A DNA stretch of 51,425 nucleotides, taken from positions 807-52,231 of the forward strand of contig NZ_KB902518.1 in assembly GCF_000379525.1 (NCBI RefSeq), given 5' to 3'. This DNA is from Lamprocystis purpurea DSM 4197. Its GTDB lineage: Bacteria; Pseudomonadota; Gammaproteobacteria; Chromatiales; Chromatiaceae. Every line of letters begins with the position of its first letter. Position 1 is the stretch's first letter. The position numbers were made by a program, and so were the translations under genes. Below the pieces are notes generated by a model, which worked only from the letters and a program-made list of their open reading frames with translations, did no database searches and was not told the DNA's origin. Shown here in pieces: positions 28,475-36,954 of the stretch.

Positions 28475-31400
28475 GTGCATTTCACTCAAGAGATTATCGA
28501 GGGTCTGACCCAGGGCGTGGCGGTCTACCGGCCGACCCCGGATGGTCAGGACTTTCTGCTGACTTACCTCAATCCGGCGGCGGCCCGTCTGGTGCGCCGC
28601 GACCGTGCCGAACTGATCGGGCAGACGCTGCGCGAGGCCTTCCCCGGCGCGGCGGCCATGGGTTTGCTGGAGCTGTTGCGGCAGGTCCACGCCACCGGCG
28701 AGCCCGGGCTGATCGAGGCCAGCCGGTATCAGGACGACCACCTGGACATGTGGGCCGCCAACCGGGTGTTCCGCCTGGCCTCGGGCGAACTGGCGACGGT
28801 CTTCGAGGATCAGTCCTCACGGGTGGCCGCGGACCGCGCCCAGGTGTCCATTCGCAACCGCTACCGGTCGGTCTTCGAGAACAGCCTGATCGGCATCTTC
28901 ACGGTGAATCGCGAGCGGGTGATCGAGGAGATCAACCAGCGCGCCTGTGAGATTTTCGGTTTCACCGTCGAGGAGGCCGTCGGCAGTTCGGTCGCGCTGC
29001 TCCATTGCTCCCCCGAACACTACCGGCGCTTCGGTGTCCAGTTCTTCGCCCAGGTCGACGAAGGGGGCGTGTTCAATATCCGCTATCCCCTACGGCGCGC
29101 GAACGGCTCGGTTTTTCCGGCCGAGTTGTCGGGTAAGCCGCTGAACGGGCGCGATTTGACCGACGGGGTGGTCTGGGTGGTCGCCGACCTGTCCGAAGCG
29201 CAGGCGATCGAGGCGGCATTGCGTGAGAGCGAGTCGCGTTACGCCCTGGCCGTGGCCGGTGCGAATGACGGTCTGTGGGACTGGAAGGTCCCCGAGGATC
29301 AGGTGTACTACTCGCCGCGCTGGAAGGCGATGCTGGGCTATGACGACGCGGAGCTTCCCAGTCGCTTCGAGGAGTGGCGCACGCGGGTGCACCCCGACGA
29401 TCTGCCGGGTGCGCTGGCGGCCATCGATGCCCATCTGCAGGGCGCCGTCGATCACCTGGACATCGAGTTCCGGATGCGCCACAAGGACGGCACCTGGCGT
29501 TGGATTCTGGCGCGTGCCGCCTGCGTGCGCGATGCCGACGGCCGGCCCCTGCGGATGGCCGGGTCCCACACGGATATCACCGAACGCAAGCGCGTTGCCG
29601 ACCAACTTCAGGAGAATGAGCACCGCCTGCATGCGGTCTTCACCGCCGTGCAGACCGGGATCGCCATCATCGATCTGGAGGCGCACCGTGTCGTCGATGC
29701 CAACGAGAAGGCGTCTGAAATCCTGGGGATCGACCGTCAGGCGCTGGTGGGTGCGCGCTGCTACGCGCATTTTTGCGCCGACCCGCTCGCCTGTCCCTTC
29801 CTGTCCGACCTGCACCAGCGCAGTCATAACGAGATCAGCCTCAGTGGTCCTGATGGGCGCGCCATCACCGTGCTGAAGAGCGGGGTCGCTCTGGATCTGA
29901 GCGGGCGGCGCCTGCTGGTGGAGAGTTTCGTTGATATCACGGAGCGCAAGCTGGCCGAGCAGGACCTGCGGGCCGCCAAGGAGCAGGCCGAGCAGGCGGC
30001 CCTGGTCAAGAGCGAGTTCATGGCCAAGATGAGCCATGAGATCCGCACGCCGATGAACTCGATCATCGGCATGACCAAGCTCACCCTGGACAGCGACCTG
30101 GACGCGGAGCAGCGGGAAAATCTGGAGATCGTCGAAGCCTCGGCCGAGGCTTTGCTGTCGCTGATCGACGATGTGCTGGATTTTTCCAAGATCGAGGCCG
30201 GGCAGGTCGAGCTGGAGGCGGTGGACTTCGAACTGGCCGGGGTGGTCGAGGACGTGATGGACAGTTTCGGCTACCGTGCCGCTCAGAAGGGGATCGAACT
30301 GGTGCACCTGATCGAGCATACGGTGCCGGCCAGTCTGTGTGGGGATCCCAGCGGTCTGCGCCAGATTCTGGTCAATCTCATCGGCAACGCGCTGAAGTTC
30401 ACCGAGACCGGCGAGGTGCTGCTCGAAGTGGCCCCGGAGATCCAGGACGCGGGGGGCCTGATGCTGCGCTTCACGATCACCGACACCGGTATCGGTGTGC
30501 CGGTGGACAAGCGCGCGGCGATCTTCGAGGCGTTCATTCAAGCCGACAACGGTACACGTCGACGTTACGAAGGCACCGGGTTGGGGCTCACCATCAGCCG
30601 CCAACTGGCGCGCATGATGGGCGGGGAAATGGGTCTTGAGGGCCGTCCGGAGGGCGGCAGCCGATTCTGGTTCACGGCGCGCTTCGGATTGGCCGAGTCC
30701 CCGGCGCCGCCGGCGGATGGGGCGGCCGTGGTGCTGGCGGGGGCACACTGTCTGATTGTCGATGACAACCGCGCCAATCGGCTGGTGCTGGAGAAGACGC
30801 TGAGCGTCTGGTCCTGTCGGGTCGCCGCGGTGACCGGCGGGCGCGAGGCGCTGGTGGAACTGGCGCGGGCGGCCGCGGCCGGCACACCCTATGACCTGGT
30901 GCTGTTGGACATGATGATGCCGGATCTGGACGGCGAAGAGACCGCCAGACTGATCCAGGCCGACCCCGCCAGCGGCCGGCCGCGGGTCATCGTGTTGACC
31001 TCGGTCGGGCATCGCGGGGAGGCGCAGCGCCTGGCCGGTCAGGGTGTCGTGGGCTGTCTGCTCAAACCCATCCGCCGCGCCCAGCTCTTCGAAACGCTGA
31101 CCCAGGCCATGCAGCGGACGCCCGCGGTCGGCACGCGCGAGGGCCGGGAGCCGCCGCCCGCCGGGTCCGCGCGGCCCGCACGCGATACCAGTCTCGCCGG
31201 ATTGCGCGTCCTGCTGGCCGAGGACAAACCCTTCAACCAGCGCTTGGCGGTCCAGTTGCTGGCCCGGCGCGGGGTGCTGGTCACCACGGCGGACGACGGT
31301 CGACAGGCGTTGGAGATTCACGCGTCCGTGCCTTTCGATCTGATTTTGATGGATGTGCAGATGCCGGTGATGGACGGCTTTGATACCACCCGCGCGATCC

Positions 31401-32014
31401 GGGAGCGGGAGTCCGCGGCCGTCGCGCCGCCGGGCCGGCCCCAGCGGCGCACCCCGATCATCGCGATGACCGCCCATGCGCTGAAGGGCGATCGGGAGCG
31501 CTGCCTGGCCGCCGGCATGGACGACTATCTGACCAAGCCCATCGATGCCGAACGGCTCTGCGAGAAAGTCCGGCTATGGTCGGGACGCGCGGACGGGGCG
31601 CCGTCGCCGGTGTCCGCGGGGATCGAGCCGCGCCCCGCGGGGAGGGTGGGTGCGCCGATCCATCCCGACAGCGCGGTGGCGCTCGCGCGGATCGCGGCTG
31701 CCTTCGGTGACGACCCGTCGGGACTCGCGGGACTGGTCGCGCTGTTCATCGAAGATGCCGAGCGGGATCTGGCCGCTCTGCAGGCGGCCGCCATGGCCGG
31801 CGACGCGACCGCGATCGTGCGGCTCGCACATTCGCTCAAGGGCATGATTCGCAACGTCGGATTGAGTGAGTTGGGTGAACTGTTCAGCCGCATCGAGGGG
31901 CTGGGAGGCGAGGGGGCCGACGGGGCGGTCGCGGCCCCGGTGGCACTGGCCGCCCGGCGCATCCACGACCTGCTTGCCGGGCTGCGTGCTTATTTGGACG
32001 GAGCGGCACCATGA
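28475..32014 (+). CDS. Multi-PAS hybrid histidine kinase (4xPAS-HisKA-HATPase-REC-REC-Hpt)
   Basis: This 1179-residue cytoplasmic sensor (GTG start; no membrane segment) has four PAS modules: about 5-115, 125-240, 250-380 (DGLWDWKVPEDQVYYSPRWK, the PAS_3 type) and 385-500. HisKA follows with about H521 in [18 protein letters not shown], then HATPase (NLIGNALKFTETGE, GTGLGLTISRQLARMMGG). Two receivers (LLDMMMPDLDGEE; LMDVQMPVMDGFD) and a terminal Hpt (LAHSLKGMIRNVG) complete the relay. The fourth PAS has a cysteine cluster RCYAHFCADPLACPF (C429, C434, C440), suggesting a metal or redox function. The stop overlaps the start of the next gene (ATGA), so the kinase is coupled to a REC-GGDEF protein, its likely phosphotransfer target. 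Confidence 0.94.
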   Translation: MHFTQEIIEGLTQGVAVYRPTPDGQDFLLTYLNPAAARLVRRDRAELIGQTLREAFPGAAAMGLLELLRQVHATGEPGLIEASRYQDDHLDMWAANRVFRLASGELATVFEDQSSRVAADRAQVSIRNRYRSVFENSLIGIFTVNRERVIEEINQRACEIFGFTVEEAVGSSVALLHCSPEHYRRFGVQFFAQVDEGGVFNIRYPLRRANGSVFPAELSGKPLNGRDLTDGVVWVVADLSEAQAIEAALRESESRYALAVAGANDGLWDWKVPEDQVYYSPRWKAMLGYDDAELPSRFEEWRTRVHPDDLPGALAAIDAHLQGAVDHLDIEFRMRHKDGTWRWILARAACVRDADGRPLRMAGSHTDITERKRVADQLQENEHRLHAVFTAVQTGIAIIDLEAHRVVDANEKASEILGIDRQALVGARCYAHFCADPLACPFLSDLHQRSHNEISLSGPDGRAITVLKSGVALDLSGRRLLVESFVDITERKLAEQDLRAAKEQAEQAALVKSEFMAKMSHEIRTPMNSIIGMTKLTLDSDLDAEQRENLEIVEASAEALLSLIDDVLDFSKIEAGQVELEAVDFELAGVVEDVMDSFGYRAAQKGIELVHLIEHTVPASLCGDPSGLRQILVNLIGNALKFTETGEVLLEVAPEIQDAGGLMLRFTITDTGIGVPVDKRAAIFEAFIQADNGTRRRYEGTGLGLTISRQLARMMGGEMGLEGRPEGGSRFWFTARFGLAESPAPPADGAAVVLAGAHCLIVDDNRANRLVLEKTLSVWSCRVAAVTGGREALVELARAAAAGTPYDLVLLDMMMPDLDGEETARLIQADPASGRPRVIVLTSVGHRGEAQRLAGQGVVGCLLKPIRRAQLFETLTQAMQRTPAVGTREGREPPPAGSARPARDTSLAGLRVLLAEDKPFNQRLAVQLLARRGVLVTTADDGRQALEIHASVPFDLILMDVQMPVMDGFDTTRAIRERESAAVAPPGRPQRRTPIIAMTAHALKGDRERCLAAGMDDYLTKPIDAERLCEKVRLWSGRADGAPSPVSAGIEPRPAGRVGAPIHPDSAVALARIAAAFGDDPSGLAGLVALFIEDAERDLAALQAAAMAGDATAIVRLAHSLKGMIRNVGLSELGELFSRIEGLGGEGADGAVAAPVALAARRIHDLLAGLRAYLDGAAP

Positions 32015-32901
32015 AGATTCTGGTGGTTGAGGATCAGCGCTTCACCCGGCGGATGCTGGCCAGCTTTCTGACCAGCGCGGGCTATGCGGTGGCGGAAGCG
32101 CAAGATGGCTGCGAGGCCATGGAGGTGCTGGCCCGCGAACCGATCCGGTTCGTCATCACCGACTGGATGATGCCCTGTATGAGCGGTCTGGATCTGATCC
32201 GCGCCATCCGCGGGCGCAGCCTCGACCGCTGGGTCTATGTGATTCTGCTGACCGCCCGCGACGAGAAGTCGGGCATTGTGGAAGCCCTGGACGCGGGGGC
32301 GGACGACTTCATTCACAAACCGTTCGACAACGACGAACTGGCGGTGCGCATCCGCGCCGGACAGCGCATCATCGAACTCACCGAGCGGCTGGAGCGGCTG
32401 GCGATGACCGACCCCCTCACCGGGCTGCTGAATCGGCGCGGGCTGCAAGAGACGCTGGCGCACAGCTGTCCGGCGGACGCCCCGCTCGGATTCGCGGTGG
32501 CGGACATCGACCACTTCAAACGGGTCAACGATGCCCACGGGCACGATCGCGGCGATCTGGTGCTCAAGCAGATCGCCGGCCTGCTGCGCGGATTGTTCGA
32601 GCCTGACGGGATCGTCGCCCGGGTGGGCGGCGAAGAATTCTGGCTGGTGCTGCGCAACGGCGATCCGGCAGCGTTGTGCGGGCTGGTCGAGCGGGCGCGC
32701 GCGCGCGTTGCCGCGACCGCCCTGACCGATGAGGGGCATGACACCTTGAGCCTGACCTTGAGCTTCGGTCTCACCATGGTCCCCGCCCTGCAGGGACGTG
32801 ATATCACGACGCTGTTCAAAATCGCGGATGGTGCCCTGTACCGGTCCAAGCAGGACGGGCGCAATCGTGTGACCTATGTCGCGCCTGATGCGTGTCCCTG
32901 A
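32011..32901 (+). CDS. REC-GGDEF response regulator, diguanylate cyclase
   Basis: In this 296-residue protein, residues 1-120 form a receiver (ILVVEDQRFTRRMLASFL, FVITDWMMPCMSGLD, LLTARDEKSG, HKPFDN). A short coiled linker (LTERLERLAMTDPLTGLLNR) leads to a GGDEF domain with the active-site form VGGEEFWLV and the metal/GTP-binding motif VADIDHFKRVNDAHGHDRGD. GGEEF is catalytically competent in the family, so c-di-GMP synthesis is expected. The product-inhibition I-site (RxxD just before the signature) is not conserved here: the segment is LFEPDGIVARVGGEEF. The 4-nt overlap with the hybrid kinase indicates a dedicated kinase-cyclase pair. Confidence 0.93.
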   Translation: MKILVVEDQRFTRRMLASFLTSAGYAVAEAQDGCEAMEVLAREPIRFVITDWMMPCMSGLDLIRAIRGRSLDRWVYVILLTARDEKSGIVEALDAGADDFIHKPFDNDELAVRIRAGQRIIELTERLERLAMTDPLTGLLNRRGLQETLAHSCPADAPLGFAVADIDHFKRVNDAHGHDRGDLVLKQIAGLLRGLFEPDGIVARVGGEEFWLVLRNGDPAALCGLVERARARVAATALTDEGHDTLSLTLSFGLTMVPALQGRDITTLFKIADGALYRSKQDGRNRVTYVAPDACP

Positions 32902-33259
32902 GGGTGCTTCGCTGTTGTCGCCTTTGCACCTGATATAGCCTTCGTACCTGATATCCAGGCAGACCCTTGGTGTAGGGGCGGGTTTGAAACCCGCCCCTAC
33001 GTCCGGTTATCACGTCCGAATGCTATGTCCGAACATGGCCTTGGCGTAGGGGCGGGTTTGAAACCCGCCCCTACATTCGGTAATTGCATTGGACGCTGAT
33101 CAGCACCGGAAATACTGCTATGCTGATTCACACAGTCGGGGCAACGAATTTCGAGCCGGCGCGGACCCGTCGTGCCGGCCGATTCGAGGCCGGCCTGACT
33201 GCAACCGCTTCCCAGGGTTTCCGGCAACGGCCGGTCCCGGTCGACCATAGGTGCAAGAT
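32902..33259. repeat. Intergenic region with double GGGGCGGGTTTGAAACCCGCCCC repeat (copy B)
   Basis: About 32931-33092 is a fuller copy of the repeat seen at 14.95 kb. It has a TATAGCC...GATATCCAGGCAGACCC left part and two perfect palindromic cores, GGCGGGTTTGAAACCCGCC, centred near 32986 and 33060, each flanked by GTAGG/CCTAC. CCGGTTATCACGTCCGAA lies between them. The remaining ~160 bp upstream of the SnoaL-like gene shows no other gene. Confidence 0.85.
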
Positions 33260-33724
33260 ATGACTTCCAGACCTCTATTGCTCGCGGCCGTCCTTTCGGC
33301 GTGCTGGGTTCCGGCCAGCGCCGCGGACGCACCGGTACCCGGCTTGCGCGAGGTGTTCGAGGCCCACGAAAAGGCACTCGACGCCCACGACCTGGCCGGT
33401 GTGATGAAGCTGTATGCCCCAGGTGAGACGACCGTGGTCATGGGTACCATCCCCGCCGAGCGCTGGGTCGGCAGTGCGCAGATCGAGGAGGCGTATCGGA
33501 ACTTCTTCGCGGACTTCGACGCCGGCTCAGTGAAGCGCAGTTGCCCGTGGGTGATCAGCGACAGCAGCGGCGATGTCGGCTGGCTCACGGCCACCTGCGA
33601 TTACCAGGATGCGCGCAAGGGTGCCCCCCGCACCTTTACACTGAATGTCTCGGTGGTCCTCCAGAAACTGGACGGGGCCTGGAAGCTGCGCACCATGCAC
33701 TACTCCAATCCGACGCCGCCTTAG
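33260..33724 (+). CDS. Secreted NTF2/SnoaL-like protein
   Basis: Starting at ATG 33260 (better than the GTG nine bases upstream) gives a 154-residue protein. Its signal peptide, TSRPLLLAAVLSACWVPASA, is cleaved near ASA-ADA. The mature part has the SnoaL-like/NTF2 cone-fold pattern: a first helix VFEAHEKALDAHDLAGVMKL, then YAPGETTVVMGTIPAERWVG, the mid-helix EEAYRNFFADFD, and closing strands VSVVLQKLDGAWKLRTMHYS. Family members can be enzymes or binding proteins; no catalytic set is evident. Two cysteines (SCPW, TCDY) could form a disulphide. It ends 57 nt before the RiPP precursor on the same strand, so it may share that transcript. Confidence 0.75.
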   Translation: MTSRPLLLAAVLSACWVPASAADAPVPGLREVFEAHEKALDAHDLAGVMKLYAPGETTVVMGTIPAERWVGSAQIEEAYRNFFADFDAGSVKRSCPWVISDSSGDVGWLTATCDYQDARKGAPRTFTLNVSVVLQKLDGAWKLRTMHYSNPTPP

Positions 33725-33781
33725 TGAACGGTCCTTTTAGAGTGCAATCGTGAGGCCAACAGTGTCCGCTGCGGAGAATCC

Positions 33782-34054
33782 ATGATGAGCGATAAGCCTG
33801 TAACCGTGCCCGATCCCGACCTGGACCACCTCGACGAACCAGGTCGTCGGGACTTCCTGATCGGCCTGGGTCGCTGGTCGAAGATCGCGATCGGTGTCGC
33901 GGTCTTTGGCGGCCTGGCCGGGGGCGGGACGAACGCCGAGGCCGGCTGGATCAACCGCCGCGGCGGCGGGGGCGGCTGGATCAATGGCGGGGGTGGCGGT
34001 TGGATCAACCGCCGGGGTGGTGTTGGCGGCGGCAGTTGGATCAACCGGCGCTGA
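33782..34054 (+). CDS. Putative radical-SAM-modified RiPP precursor with four WIN core motifs
   Basis: This is a 90-residue peptide. The acidic N-terminus is followed by a twin-arginine-like motif GRRDFLIGLGRW (R22, R23) and a hydrophobic stretch KIAIGVAVFGGLAGGG ending NAEA. The tail from G55 is made only of Gly, Arg, Val/Ser and four Trp-Ile-Asn triplets (W56, W66, W74, W86): GWINRRGGGGG, WINGGGGG, WINRRGGVGGG, SWINRR. Aromatic-X-Asn triplets in Gly-rich tails next to a radical SAM/SPASM enzyme are the hallmark of cyclophane (triceptide) precursors such as the GrrA group, where the enzyme joins the aromatic ring to the Asn side chain. The precursor role is inferred from composition and from the partner and maturase genes downstream. 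A GGAGA ribosome-binding site precedes ATG 33782. Confidence 0.82.
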   Translation: MMSDKPVTVPDPDLDHLDEPGRRDFLIGLGRWSKIAIGVAVFGGLAGGGTNAEAGWINRRGGGGGWINGGGGGWINRRGGVGGGSWINRR

Positions 34055-34159
34055 TCGACACGGTTTGGACTCACCTGGGCTTGGTTCTGGTCGCCGACTC
34101 GATGGTGCCGCCATGGCCATGAGCGCCGTTGCGGCCACCGCGACCACTCGGATTTATCC

Positions 34160-34957
34160 ATGATGGTCTACAACATCCCGGCGGCCCTGTTTCGGACCTT
34201 CCCGGATCGCCCGCTGATCGTGCGGGCCGCTGCCGCCGCCGAGTTGCGGGGGGCATTGGGGGATGCGGTCCCCGACGGGGTGGCGTTCGTGCAGCTCACC
34301 GCCCTCACCGGCGACATGGCACCGCTCGCGGACTGGGGCGACGGGCTGGCGGTCGATCTGGTCATGGCGGATCCCGCGACTGAGCTGCCTTTACTCTACG
34401 GCTGCACGCCATTGTTGGCCCGGCATCCGGTGCGGGTGACCATCCCCTGGTTGCCGGGTTTGGCCCGGGCCGTCAAGCTGGCTGTTTCGCTTGGCTTTCC
34501 GGTCCGTCTGGCCGGCGCTCAGCCGGCCGCGGAAGCTGCCGCCGAGGCGCGCCGGGCGCTCGATTTGTTCCTGCACAACCCCACCGTGGCCCAGCCCGTG
34601 GAGCCCTTTCACGGGTTGCTCAGCGGGTTCCTCCACGACACGCCGGTCGATCTCTGGGACCTGCTGGAGCGCGATCCGGAGCAGACCTGTGTTCTGGACG
34701 CGCGCGGCGAGGTTCTGCCGGACCAGGGGCCGGCGTCCGTCACCGCGTTTCGCGAGACCCTGCTGGCCGCCGGGGCCGAGTGTTGCGGGTGTCCCTGGTT
34801 CGCCTCCTGCGGCGGGTACTTCAAGTGGCCCCGGACCGATGTTGCCTGCGACGGGGTCAAGCCGTTGTTCGCGGATCTGGCGTCCGCCGCCGCCGAACTG
34901 CGCCAGGGTCTGGCGGCCTATGCCGCGCAGCGGGACGGACCCGGCGATGGGGCCTAG
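34160..34957 (+). CDS. RiPP maturase partner with SPASM-like cysteine motif
   Basis: This 265-residue cytoplasmic protein lacks the CX3CX2C radical SAM motif. Its middle (VRVTIPWLPGLARAVKLAVS LGFPVRL) looks like alternating strands and helices of a barrel half. The C-terminus carries CCGCPWFASCGGYF, where C208, C211 and C217 make CX2CX5C, the spacing of the SPASM CX2CX5CX3C set. C230 may be a fourth ligand (VACDG). The gene overlaps the radical SAM gene by 11 nt and follows the precursor by about 105 nt. I infer an accessory, cluster-binding subunit that recognises the precursor or holds an auxiliary Fe-S cluster for the maturase. I cannot name the family. Confidence 0.65.
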   Translation: MMVYNIPAALFRTFPDRPLIVRAAAAAELRGALGDAVPDGVAFVQLTALTGDMAPLADWGDGLAVDLVMADPATELPLLYGCTPLLARHPVRVTIPWLPGLARAVKLAVSLGFPVRLAGAQPAAEAAAEARRALDLFLHNPTVAQPVEPFHGLLSGFLHDTPVDLWDLLERDPEQTCVLDARGEVLPDQGPASVTAFRETLLAAGAECCGCPWFASCGGYFKWPRTDVACDGVKPLFADLASAAAELRQGLAAYAAQRDGPGDGA

Positions 34958-36098
34958 GGTCTTCTCGCTGATCCTGCTGCCGACGCTGCGGTGCAATGCC
35001 GATTGCGACTATTGCTTCGAGGACAAGGACGGGACCTGGCTGACGTTGGACCGCCTGCCGGTGCTGATCGGCAAAGTCCTGGATCATCTCGTGGCCAAGG
35101 ACATCGCCGAACTCCAGATTCACTGGCAGGGCGGCGAAGTCATGACGCTGCCGCCGTCCTGGTTCTCCCAGGCGCAGGGTCTGATCGACGCCGCCGCCGC
35201 CGCGCGCGGACGGACCGTGACCCATGCGCTGCAGACCAACATGATCGGCTACAGCCCGGCCTGGGACGGCGTGATCCGCGCGATGTTCGGTAACAGCCTC
35301 AGCACCTCGCTGGACTATCCCAATCACTACCGCCATCGGCGGGGACGGGAGCCGGCCGAGTATGACCGCATCTGGCAGCGTCACGTCCGCCTGGCCCGTT
35401 CAGTCGGGATCGAGGTGCAGGTCATCGCGGTGGCGAACCCGGCCACCCTGGATCTCGGCGCCGAGCGGTTCTACCGCTATTTCGTCGATGAACTCGGGGT
35501 CGACAGCTTTCAGGTCAACACACCTTTTCCGGGCGGGCAAGCCAATCCGGTCAAGCGTCTGTTACCCCTGGAGACCGAGGCATTGGTGCGTTTTTTCATC
35601 GCGTTGGCCGACCTCTGGCTGGAGCGCGGCGCTGCCGCGGGGGTGCGGATCGGACCCTTCGATGAATTGTTGCGCTATTTCAGCGGCGCTCACGCGGTGC
35701 TGCCCTGCATCTGGACCGACGATTGCACCAACCATCTGCTCGCCATTGATCCGCACGGCCATGTGGCGCAATGCGACTGCTGGGTCACGAGCTACCCCGA
35801 GTACCGGTTCGGTAACCTGTTCGCCGACGCGGACTTGGGAACGCTGCTGGCCGTCAGCTCCGCCAGGGAGGATTTCCGTCGACGCCCCGCCGCCTTGATG
35901 CAGGGCGACTGCATCGCCTGCGACTACCTGGCGCTCTGCCACGGCGGTTGCCCGGTGCGGGCCTTCACCGTCCATGGCACCCTGTTCGAGAAAGACCCTT
36001 ACTGCGCCCTCTATCGGGCGCTGTTCGCGCACATGAACGCCGCCGCGGTCCGCCGCGCCCGGCGGCGGCCGGAATATCCAAAAGCGCAGATCGGGTGA
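34947..36098 (+). CDS. Radical SAM/SPASM peptide maturase (cyclophane type)
   Basis: ATG 34947 gives a 383-residue enzyme; an upstream extension of the same frame only shadows the partner gene. The radical SAM motif is LRCNADCDYCFED (C16, C20, C23, CX3CX2C), followed by IHWQGGEVMTLP as the GGE-type SAM-binding strand and HALQTNMIGYSP. The C-terminal SPASM domain has AQCDCWVTSYPEYRFGNLF, then CIACDYLALCHGGCP, an exact CX2CX5CX3C, and a final DPYC. This is the architecture of GrrM-like maturases that form C-C crosslinks in aromatic-X-Asn motifs, so the WIN repeats of the precursor at 33782 are the expected substrate. Translation is coupled to the partner by the 11-nt overlap. Substrate and product are inferred. 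Confidence 0.9.
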   Translation: MGPRVFSLILLPTLRCNADCDYCFEDKDGTWLTLDRLPVLIGKVLDHLVAKDIAELQIHWQGGEVMTLPPSWFSQAQGLIDAAAAARGRTVTHALQTNMIGYSPAWDGVIRAMFGNSLSTSLDYPNHYRHRRGREPAEYDRIWQRHVRLARSVGIEVQVIAVANPATLDLGAERFYRYFVDELGVDSFQVNTPFPGGQANPVKRLLPLETEALVRFFIALADLWLERGAAAGVRIGPFDELLRYFSGAHAVLPCIWTDDCTNHLLAIDPHGHVAQCDCWVTSYPEYRFGNLFADADLGTLLAVSSAREDFRRRPAALMQGDCIACDYLALCHGGCPVRAFTVHGTLFEKDPYCALYRALFAHMNAAAVRRARRRPEYPKAQIG

Positions 36099-36399
36099 AC
36101 GGCGATCGTCAAGATCGCGCTTGGCCCCATCGCGGCCGGAGGCCGCTCCCACGGGAGATTATGACCTTCAGGGGCAGGTCGCGCAGCGACCCTGTGGGAG
36201 CGGCCTCCGGCCGCGATGCGATGTCGCGGTGAACGGCGATGGTCATGATCACGCGAGGGCCTATCGCGGCCGGAGGCCGCTCCCACGGGAGACTGTCAGT
36301 GCCATGCACACGGGGTTTGGAATCCCGATCAATTTGGTTACCATGGGGAACCTGGGTCGCCCGGACCCGACCGCCACTTCAAGAGACCGGAGGACTGCT
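36099..36399. repeat. REP cluster (three GCGGCCGGAGGCCGC palindromes)
   Basis: Three copies of TCGCGGCCGGAGGCCGCTCCCAC lie at about 36129-36156, inverted at 36191-36217, and at 36262-36290, a direct-inverted-direct arrangement like a bacterial interspersed mosaic element. A related copy is at 2543-2564. The cluster separates the RiPP genes from the thioredoxin gene, so they are probably separate transcripts. No ORF in it looks real. Confidence 0.85.
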
Positions 36400-36954
36400 A
36401 TGGCCTCGTTGCAAACCCCAGTCTGCGACTTCGGCGCTCCCGCGCCTGCTTTCTCACTTCCCGGCGTGGACGGCCGGATCTGGACCCGCGATCAGTGCGC
36501 CGGCGAGCGTGGGTTGCTGGTGATGTTCATTTGCAATCATTGCCCTTACGTCAAAGCCGTGCGCGAGCGCATCGTGCGCGACGTACGGGAGCTGCAGGCG
36601 CTCGGCATCGGCTGTGTCGGGATCATGTCCAATGATCCGGTCGACTACCCGGAAGACGGGTTCGAGAACATGCGGCAGGTGGCCGAGACCTTCGGTTATC
36701 CCTTTCCCTATCTGTTCGACGAGACCCAGGCGGTTGCCCGTGCCTATGGCGCGGTGTGCACCCCGGATTTTTTCGGTTACAACGCGGATCTGGGTCTCCA
36801 GTACCGCGGCCGGCTCGACGAGAGCCGCAAGGAAACCGCGCCCGCCGGGGTGCGGCGGGATCTGTTCGAGGCGATGCGGGAGGTTGCCGCAACCGGGCGC
36901 GGACCCGCCGACCAGATTCCCAGCATGGGCTGTTCGATCAAGTGGAAGACCTGA
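36400..36954 (+). CDS. Thioredoxin/peroxiredoxin-like family protein (CNHCPYV)
   Basis: ATG 36400, preceded by ACCGGAGG, gives 184 residues. A longer frame upstream runs through REP sequence and is rejected. The thioredoxin fold of the AhpC/TSA-redoxin type is visible: GAPAPAFSLPGVDGRIW, LLVMFICNHCPYVKAVRERI with the redox pair C45/C48, GIMSNDPVDYPEDGFENM, FPYLFDETQAVARAYGAVCT, and PDFFGYNADLGLQYRGRLDE. There is no signal peptide, so it is cytoplasmic. The family is widespread next to unrelated genes, and the natural substrate is unknown. It follows the RiPP genes but is separated from them by 300 bp of REP sequence. Confidence 0.88.
   Translation: MASLQTPVCDFGAPAPAFSLPGVDGRIWTRDQCAGERGLLVMFICNHCPYVKAVRERIVRDVRELQALGIGCVGIMSNDPVDYPEDGFENMRQVAETFGYPFPYLFDETQAVARAYGAVCTPDFFGYNADLGLQYRGRLDESRKETAPAGVRRDLFEAMREVAATGRGPADQIPSMGCSIKWKT

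Follow-up and report, generated by a model that had tools for sequence, protein, structure and literature searches.

A conserved triceptide-like RiPP cassette with a Tat-type leader and a probable degenerate radical SAM partner in Lamprocystis purpurea

The window analysed here (the whole stretch of 51,425 nucleotides of Lamprocystis purpurea DNA) contains a conserved gene cassette for a ribosomally synthesized and post-translationally modified peptide (RiPP) of the triceptide kind; its new parts are a leader of the twin-arginine translocation (Tat) type and a partner protein that is most likely a degenerate radical S-adenosylmethionine (SAM) enzyme. The cassette consists of four genes arranged head to tail on the + strand, which encode a SnoaL/NTF2-like protein (P0004, 154 aa; 33260..33724), the precursor (P0001, 90 aa; 33782..34054), the partner (P0002, 265 aa; 34160..34957) and a radical SAM/SPASM maturase (P0003, 383 aa; 34947..36098). 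The precursor gene is separated from its neighbours by 57 bases upstream and 105 bases downstream, and the end of the partner gene and the start of the maturase gene share 11 bases. The maturase was assigned from NCBIfam models, motifs, a tree and a structural model, and the partner from an AlphaFold2 model, a profile match and co-occurrence. Two marks of a triceptide system are present: a radical SAM/SPASM maturase adjoins the precursor, also in relatives, and the core of the precursor carries conserved aromatic-x-(N/D) units; a third, the C-C bond from the aromatic ring to Cβ at i+2, is predicted.

A cyclophane (triceptide-type) RiPP cluster of three genes had been proposed for this DNA from its letters alone (the original prediction), and that interpretation is supported. 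The three-gene set was found to recur in a survey of neighbourhoods, with the precursor adjoining the other two genes; the SnoaL-like gene and the probable degenerate radical SAM nature of the partner had been overlooked.

Precursor units and distribution of the cassette

P0001 contains four Trp-Ile-Asn (WIN) motifs, W56-N58 (33947..33955), W66-N68 (33977..33985), W74-N76 (34001..34009) and W86-N88 (34037..34045), all on the + strand and exactly where they had been predicted within the 90-residue precursor. In 100,000 shuffles of these 90 residues at least four W-x-N units arose once and four WIN never; in the same number of shuffles of the 36-residue tail the counts were two and zero. Among the 702 stop-to-stop stretches of 40 or more residues in the window, P0001 was the sole one with four W-x-N units, and one 740-aa stretch had three. 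Since the precursors of relatives begin at the second Met (33785) in the alignment of homologous precursors, the first codon of the gene may be extra.

Seventeen homologous precursors were aligned, an 18th (locus L055) was added for the count and a 19th (L072) was found later. Three cassettes were left out of the precursor count: L005, in which the SnoaL-like and precursor genes are fused and the partner is in two pieces, so that it looks like a collapsed assembly (its intact maturase was included among those used), L035, where the contig ends inside the partner and the precursor was not seen, and the decayed L043. Across the 19 precursors W-x-N/D accounts for 106 of 113 core Trp residues (101 N, 5 D). 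For the first 18 the count is 96 of 100 (93 W-x-N, three W-x-D), and conversely 93 of their 97 core Asn residues stand two after a Trp; the L072 precursor contributes ten of 13 (8 N, 2 D). As a background for the same loci, N or D stands two after Trp at 19 of 144 Trp residues in the maturases and at 11 of 76 in the partners. Individual precursors have between 4 and 18 core Trp residues.

The middle residue is free. Ten kinds occur in the 18 precursors (I 33, V 31, A 8, L 6, F 6, Y 4, H 4, G 2, S 1, N 1), which rules out an identical WIN as the conserved unit; of that part of the original prediction the four WIN motifs of P0001 stand, and the conserved unit is Trp with Asn or Asp two residues on. 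The motif conservation among homologues that the original prediction had named as a test was found in this form. A constant W and N/D with varying middle residues, spacers and repeat number is the pattern expected under selection for a two-residue reaction.

The maturase family is patchy and lies mostly in the host family, Chromatiaceae, as far as it was searched, as judged from the following samples. A scan of contigs with the maturase gave six loci of 56-92% identity, titled as metagenome-assembled genomes (MAGs) of Chromatiaceae, Lamprocystis and Thiodictyon (two), an unassigned gammaproteobacterial MAG and an Acidobacteria MAG. Whole-genome searches detected it in 18 of the 194 genomes sampled from the host family and in 18 of the 210 searched from the host order; loci L001-L005 coincide in coordinates and E-values with five places of the host-family survey and were counted once. 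In a phylum sample only the genome of the window itself carried it (one of 398), as did only the seed in a sample centred on the Acidobacteria genome (one of 247). Searching a class sample of 143 genomes with the GrrM model added one more carrier, G906, from another gammaproteobacterial family. The Acidobacteria-labelled contig (L006), a MAG contig of 12.6 kb with 4x coverage that could be misbinned, retains the order of all four genes.

Partner, leader and proposed route to the mature peptide

The proposal as a whole, which we consider fairly probable, is that of a triceptide-like RiPP cassette with partner-assisted crosslinking, Tat export and release by signal peptidase. The maturase would join the indole of each Trp to the β-carbon of the residue two positions further on (Asn or Asp), giving one bond and a loss of 2 Da per W-x-N/D unit and thus four in P0001. 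The partner, having lost the SAM cluster and kept one SPASM cluster motif, would work together with the maturase and most likely hold the leader. This leader would double as a Tat signal, such that the peptide would be modified in the cytoplasm, leave through the ordinary Tat translocase and be cleaved at an A-x-A site by signal peptidase I. The predicted product (residues 55-90; 33944..34051, +) would be a Gly-rich cationic peptide of 36 residues, with six Arg and no acidic residue. The secreted SnoaL-like protein would then meet the peptide outside the cytoplasm, as a carrier or an immunity factor.

The partner had been described as a SPASM-motif protein. It does carry CX2CX5C plus one further Cys (C208, C211, C217 and C230; 34781..34849, +), the predicted site of one Fe-S cluster, and these four residues are invariant in the 17 partners aligned; CX3CX2C, in contrast, occurs in none of the 17, and neither NCBIfam nor Pfam gave a match for P0002 at E up to 1. 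Across the 17 partners only weak family matches were seen, including HxsC in three and SPASM in two, and a profile search of solved sequences with the partner returned nothing at E up to 5. Its AlphaFold2 model (mean predicted local distance difference test score, pLDDT, 89.1) had ChlB (9gmc) as best PDB match (E 6.9e-4, template-modelling score, TM, 0.51), the only one at or below 0.001, and in a profile-profile comparison the C-terminal part of the partner aligned with the maturase (61% probability, E 8e-5). Because of the Cys motifs, the ChlB-like model and this profile match, the partner most likely is a degenerate paralogue of the radical SAM/SPASM type that keeps one cluster site and lacks the SAM-cluster motif.

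Partner and maturase were found in the identical 18 of the 194 host-family genomes (Fisher p about 1e-25, with related genomes counted as independent). At L055 in G906 no partner gene adjoins the maturase; it lies on another contig beside a second precursor (L072), which rules out that the partner is dispensable. From both observations the partner looks obligatory for the cassette. The second G906 precursor (L072 6640-7059; G906:C18) has mixed W-Y-D, W-N-N and other W-x-N units and stands away from the maturase gene, and one G906 maturase may act on two precursors in trans.

That the partner serves instead as an electron-transfer or assembly subunit, and not as a leader-binding chaperone, is an alternative of real, if lesser, weight: four cluster Cys residues invariant in 17/17 exceed the needs of pure peptide binding. 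Most of its invariant residues nevertheless lie outside the Cys motif, and the data do not separate the two roles. A more specific form of leader holding, possible but doubtful, is that the partner, as a radical SAM paralogue without catalytic activity, binds the Tat leader, offers each W-x-N unit to the active maturase and delays export until the peptide is crosslinked, in the manner of Tat chaperones, which hold back the export of cofactor enzymes.

The twin-arginine-like leader of the original prediction was borne out. In P0001 the motif is RRDFL (residues 22-26; 33845..33859, +), followed by GLGRWS, and RRxFL followed at a fixed distance by G-x-W-S is present in all 19 precursors; an Ile five residues after the Trp of GxWS and a Gly pair further on are likewise invariant. 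The predicted signal peptidase I site, A-E-A (residues 52-54; 33935..33943, +), lies one residue before the first core Trp, and by eye A/V-x-A was found 0 to 3 residues before it in 18 of the 19 precursors, L006 having T-A-A. These motifs were judged against the general Tat and signal peptidase consensus. TatC was present in all five genomes picked.

To find recurring neighbours, open reading frames of at least 110 aa were clustered from the flanking sequences fetched for 12 divergent loci; short precursors and other short genes fall below this cut. Groups in at least three loci were the maturase (12), partner (11), SnoaL-like (9), longer precursor (7) and sensory-domain (4) proteins, and the rest were overlapping or antisense frames of cassette or sensory genes. 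No shared exporter or protease was among these recurring groups, so the simplest reading would be that the general Tat and signal peptidase machinery exports the peptide and removes its leader.

It is rather unlikely that the modification proceeds as proposed while the RRxFL region is a recognition leader of the maturase, or a general secretion (Sec) or membrane anchor only, with the product held in the membrane or exported otherwise. GxWS is conserved beyond the needs of Tat function alone, which suggests that this stretch may also be read by the maturase or the partner, and Tat models hardly respond to the precursors. A Grr precursor (L059) has a Sec-like leader by eye, and Sec leaders have been reported for MNIO-modified RiPPs in parts of one paper (PMC12452194). 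Set against this are the invariance of RR, F and L, the A/V-x-A site before the first Trp, TatC in every genome picked and the fact that no shared exporter or protease was seen among the clustered flank genes.

The SnoaL-like protein P0004 scored 50.9 bits with Pfam SnoaL_3 (cut-off 22) and has a Sec-type N-terminal signal by eye; in L006 its start is lipoprotein-like, also by eye. A homologue adjoins the cassette in 14 of 20 loci. Its part as an extracytoplasmic carrier or immunity factor is a guess.

Maturase and the predicted crosslink

The two motifs originally predicted for the maturase, the SAM-binding CX3CX2C (C16, C20 and C23; 34992..35015, +) and the SPASM motif CX2CX5CX3C (residues 322-335; 35910..35951, +), are present in all 19 maturases aligned. 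Further Cys residues of P0003 lie in C-x10-G-x4-C (260-276) and at C353; C276-D277 is invariant in 19/19, and the Asp corresponds to one that presumably is catalytic in the anaerobic sulfatase-maturating enzyme (anSME).

Among the 25 NCBIfam families listed for P0003, only the SPASM domain model TIGR04085 exceeded its cut-off (51.9 bits against 27). The scores with the other models (bits/cut-off) were DynA 127.6/450, anSME (TIGR03942) 123.1/349.45, DarW 109.1/650, DarE 88.8/650, GrrM 77.1/310, AmcB 68.4/425, YhhB 59.7/445, XyeB 48.9/450 and FxsB 43.8/370. The other 18 maturases were compared by E-value alone, with DynA best; the order DynA, anSME, DarW, DarE, GrrM was the same for all 19, with one methanogen-type model in between. 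Pfam gave only Radical_SAM and SPASM for P0003, both under their cut-offs. Membership of P0003 in the Grr, Xye, Fxs, Dyn, Dar, Amc, Yhh or anSME families is ruled out by the curated cut-offs.

In a tree of 37 rows the 20 rows of the maturase family formed one group (98/97), apart from five GrrM rows (100/100), which include L045 just under the GrrM cut-off, and from two anSME rows (100/100), outside which the maturase family lies. The distinct type claimed by the original prediction is in agreement with these scores and groupings, as is the position outside anSME, for which a test had been fixed in advance. L043 is not part of the tree, and neither are true DynA or XyeB sequences; in samples of 143 and 274 genomes no protein exceeded the DynA or XyeB cut-off, and DarE was not searched for. 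The AlphaFold2 model of the maturase (pLDDT 81.5, poor around 319-349) matched ChlB first in the PDB (9gm3; E 1.2e-14, TM 0.69), with anSME close behind (E 6.3e-14, TM 0.70).

P0003 might act on the W-x-N/D units by a chemistry other than a three-residue C-C cyclophane: for example, Trp or Asn could be hydroxylated or dehydrogenated, an ether could be formed, or the Asp after C276 could serve an oxidation like that of anSME. An alternative of this kind would still be a radical-SAM-modified RiPP and is improbable. It draws on anSME being the closest solved enzyme by sequence, on the invariant C276-D277 pair, on the DynA, DarW, DarE and anSME models all outscoring GrrM, and on the ether link that DarE makes on Trp (PMC9055067, in part). 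On the other side, the exact W-x-[N/D] spacing agrees with the substrates of OscB and XncB as given in passages of a review (PMC11002830), and ChlB is, by a narrow margin, the top structural match of the maturase. Furthermore, an anSME-type target does not recur, because the 18 cores counted have 31 Ser at scattered positions and hardly any Cys (two).

A reading of the Gly/Trp/Asn tail as an ordinary secreted repeat protein, with no relation to the radical SAM genes next to it, is very improbable: Gly-rich repeats are common among proteins, but partner and maturase share the same host-family genomes, the precursor adjoins them in diverged loci and the order of all four genes is kept in L006.

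Several points weigh against the crosslinked, Tat-exported peptide proposed here. The four crosslinks in P0001 are a prediction drawn from its sequence, and seven of the 113 core Trp residues fall outside W-x-N/D (four WGG in the 18 precursors, and WGW and two WGG in L072). Tat family models in NCBIfam gave a single weak match among 17 precursors (TIGR02811, E 0.031), and Pfam gave no Tat-related match for P0001. The anSME score of the maturase nearly equals that of DynA (123 versus 128 bits), the solved protein nearest to it in sequence is anSME (88.7 bits), which is a protein oxidase, followed by ChlB (37.8 bits), and the tree, in which many reference branches are long, leaves the deep joining order of the maturase, GrrM and anSME groups unsettled. 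The match of the partner to ChlB is modest, TIM-barrel aldolases coming next and anSME at rank 11; leader holding by the partner is a guess, and electron transfer fits equally. A SnoaL-like gene was not found in six of the 20 loci (L003, L004, L031, L032, L035 at a contig end and the decayed L043), nor in the G906 stretches L055 and L072.

Neighbourhood and comparison with known systems

Over 32800-36500 no Rfam match was obtained, and promoter and terminator scans gave nothing above shuffles. Just 3' of the maturase gene (36133-36286) a 20-base GC-rich palindromic element resembling repetitive extragenic palindromes occurs three times, two copies being direct and one inverted (mean 0.00 in 100 shuffles). 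It is followed by an AhpC/TSA-type redoxin gene (36301-36954), present among eight loci compared only in the closest relatives L001 and L002. The upstream region (28475-32901) was read by eye as encoding a long hybrid sensor kinase and a response regulator of the GGDEF type; L036, L037 and L055 likewise have related signalling genes close to the cassette. Elsewhere in the same genome an 810-residue protein (L008 160-2592; G000:C177) appears by eye to have two radical SAM/SPASM halves in one chain.

The decayed cassette L043 (G476:C255, 2292-4373) has a maturase in two pieces with stops and a precursor that lacks the usual start and has two W-x-N units only. A remnant of a third partner gene (L073; G473:C1, 4652-4902) accompanies two complete cassettes in one genome. 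Searches of plasmid and phage collections gave 188 and 10 records, all distant from P0003 (<60% identity), and the best relatives among the matches listed had 29% and 27% identity, respectively. Pseudomonas accounts for 131 of the 188 plasmid records; one of its plasmids (NZ_CP093017.1; L062 1-5942) carries type II secretion genes and, after them, three radical SAM/SPASM genes in a row.

No published description of the cassette was found among the titles and abstract openings listed for open-licence PMC papers. In the portions of PMC9062424 available, network clusters 19 and 63 have Aro-Asn or Aro-Xaa-Asn precursors, their organisms not being named in that text; an earlier, unlabelled sighting of the W-x-N/D cassette family is possible there.

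Among the closest known systems are GrrM/OscB with GrrA/OscA (TIGR04261, TIGR04260), which share the Gly-rich precursor, the aromatic-x-Asn units and a single radical SAM/SPASM maturase. According to passages of the review (PMC11002830), OscB joins Trp C7 to Cβ of Asn or Asp, and for XncB the bond runs from Trp C6 to Cβ of Arg or Asn; the five W-x-D units seen in relatives fit an OscB-like tolerance of Asp. P0003 nevertheless stays under the GrrM cut-off and its group is not nested in the GrrM clade, P0001 scored 14.2 bits with GrrA (cut-off 31; eight of 17 precursors matched at E up to 1, best 3.6e-5), and the Tat-type leader, the degenerate radical SAM partner and the SnoaL-like gene set the cassette apart. 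Small open reading frames beside two plasmid GrrM genes also have W-x-N; by eye one (L059) has a Sec-like start and the other (L058) no signal, and neither has RRxFL with GxWS.

ChlB, a multiple cyclophane synthase (9gm3, 9gmc), is the top structural match of the maturase model as well as of the partner model, but the maturase shares 18% identity with it in the structural alignment. ChlB derives from a radical SAM/HExxH-fused system (PMC12636437, in part), whereas P0003 shows only Radical_SAM and SPASM. DynA, DarW and DarE (dynobactin and darobactin) are alike in their Trp-centred crosslinks, which are predicted for the cassette, and DynA gave the best NCBIfam score; their cut-offs of 450 and 650 were missed, however, and they act on one short core instead of repeated W-x-N units in a long tail. 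With anSME, the closest solved relative by sequence, the maturase shares the fold and the layout of cluster Cys residues; it differs in its score below the cut-off, its separate tree group and the repeat peptide encoded next to its gene.

If the proposal holds, a new triceptide family would be added that has a twin-arginine leader and no dedicated protease or exporter seen, in which, across the genomes searched, the maturase never lacks a degenerate radical SAM partner, and in which nearly all of the 4 to 18 core Trp residues of a precursor stand in crosslinkable units. The free middle residue and the long repeats suggest a tolerant, repeat-acting crosslinking enzyme.

A functional analogy is offered by the bufferins and other MNIO-modified RiPPs, which likewise use an export signal as leader, a maturase with a dedicated partner and general export machinery, although the enzyme family is unrelated, the chemistry mostly concerns Cys and the route is Sec instead of Tat (PMC12452194, in part). 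In the excerpted text of that paper, which has no whole-word match for Tat, Sec leaders on RiPP precursors are called highly unusual, a mechanism against early export is held to be necessary and the partner is proposed to mask the signal until modification is complete. A Tat leader bound by a dead paralogue would, if true, answer how signal-bearing precursors avoid leaving the cell unmodified, and the Tat version makes this question testable in Escherichia coli. By this comparison, the cassette looks like a Tat counterpart of the MNIO/Sec-leader systems in a different enzyme family.

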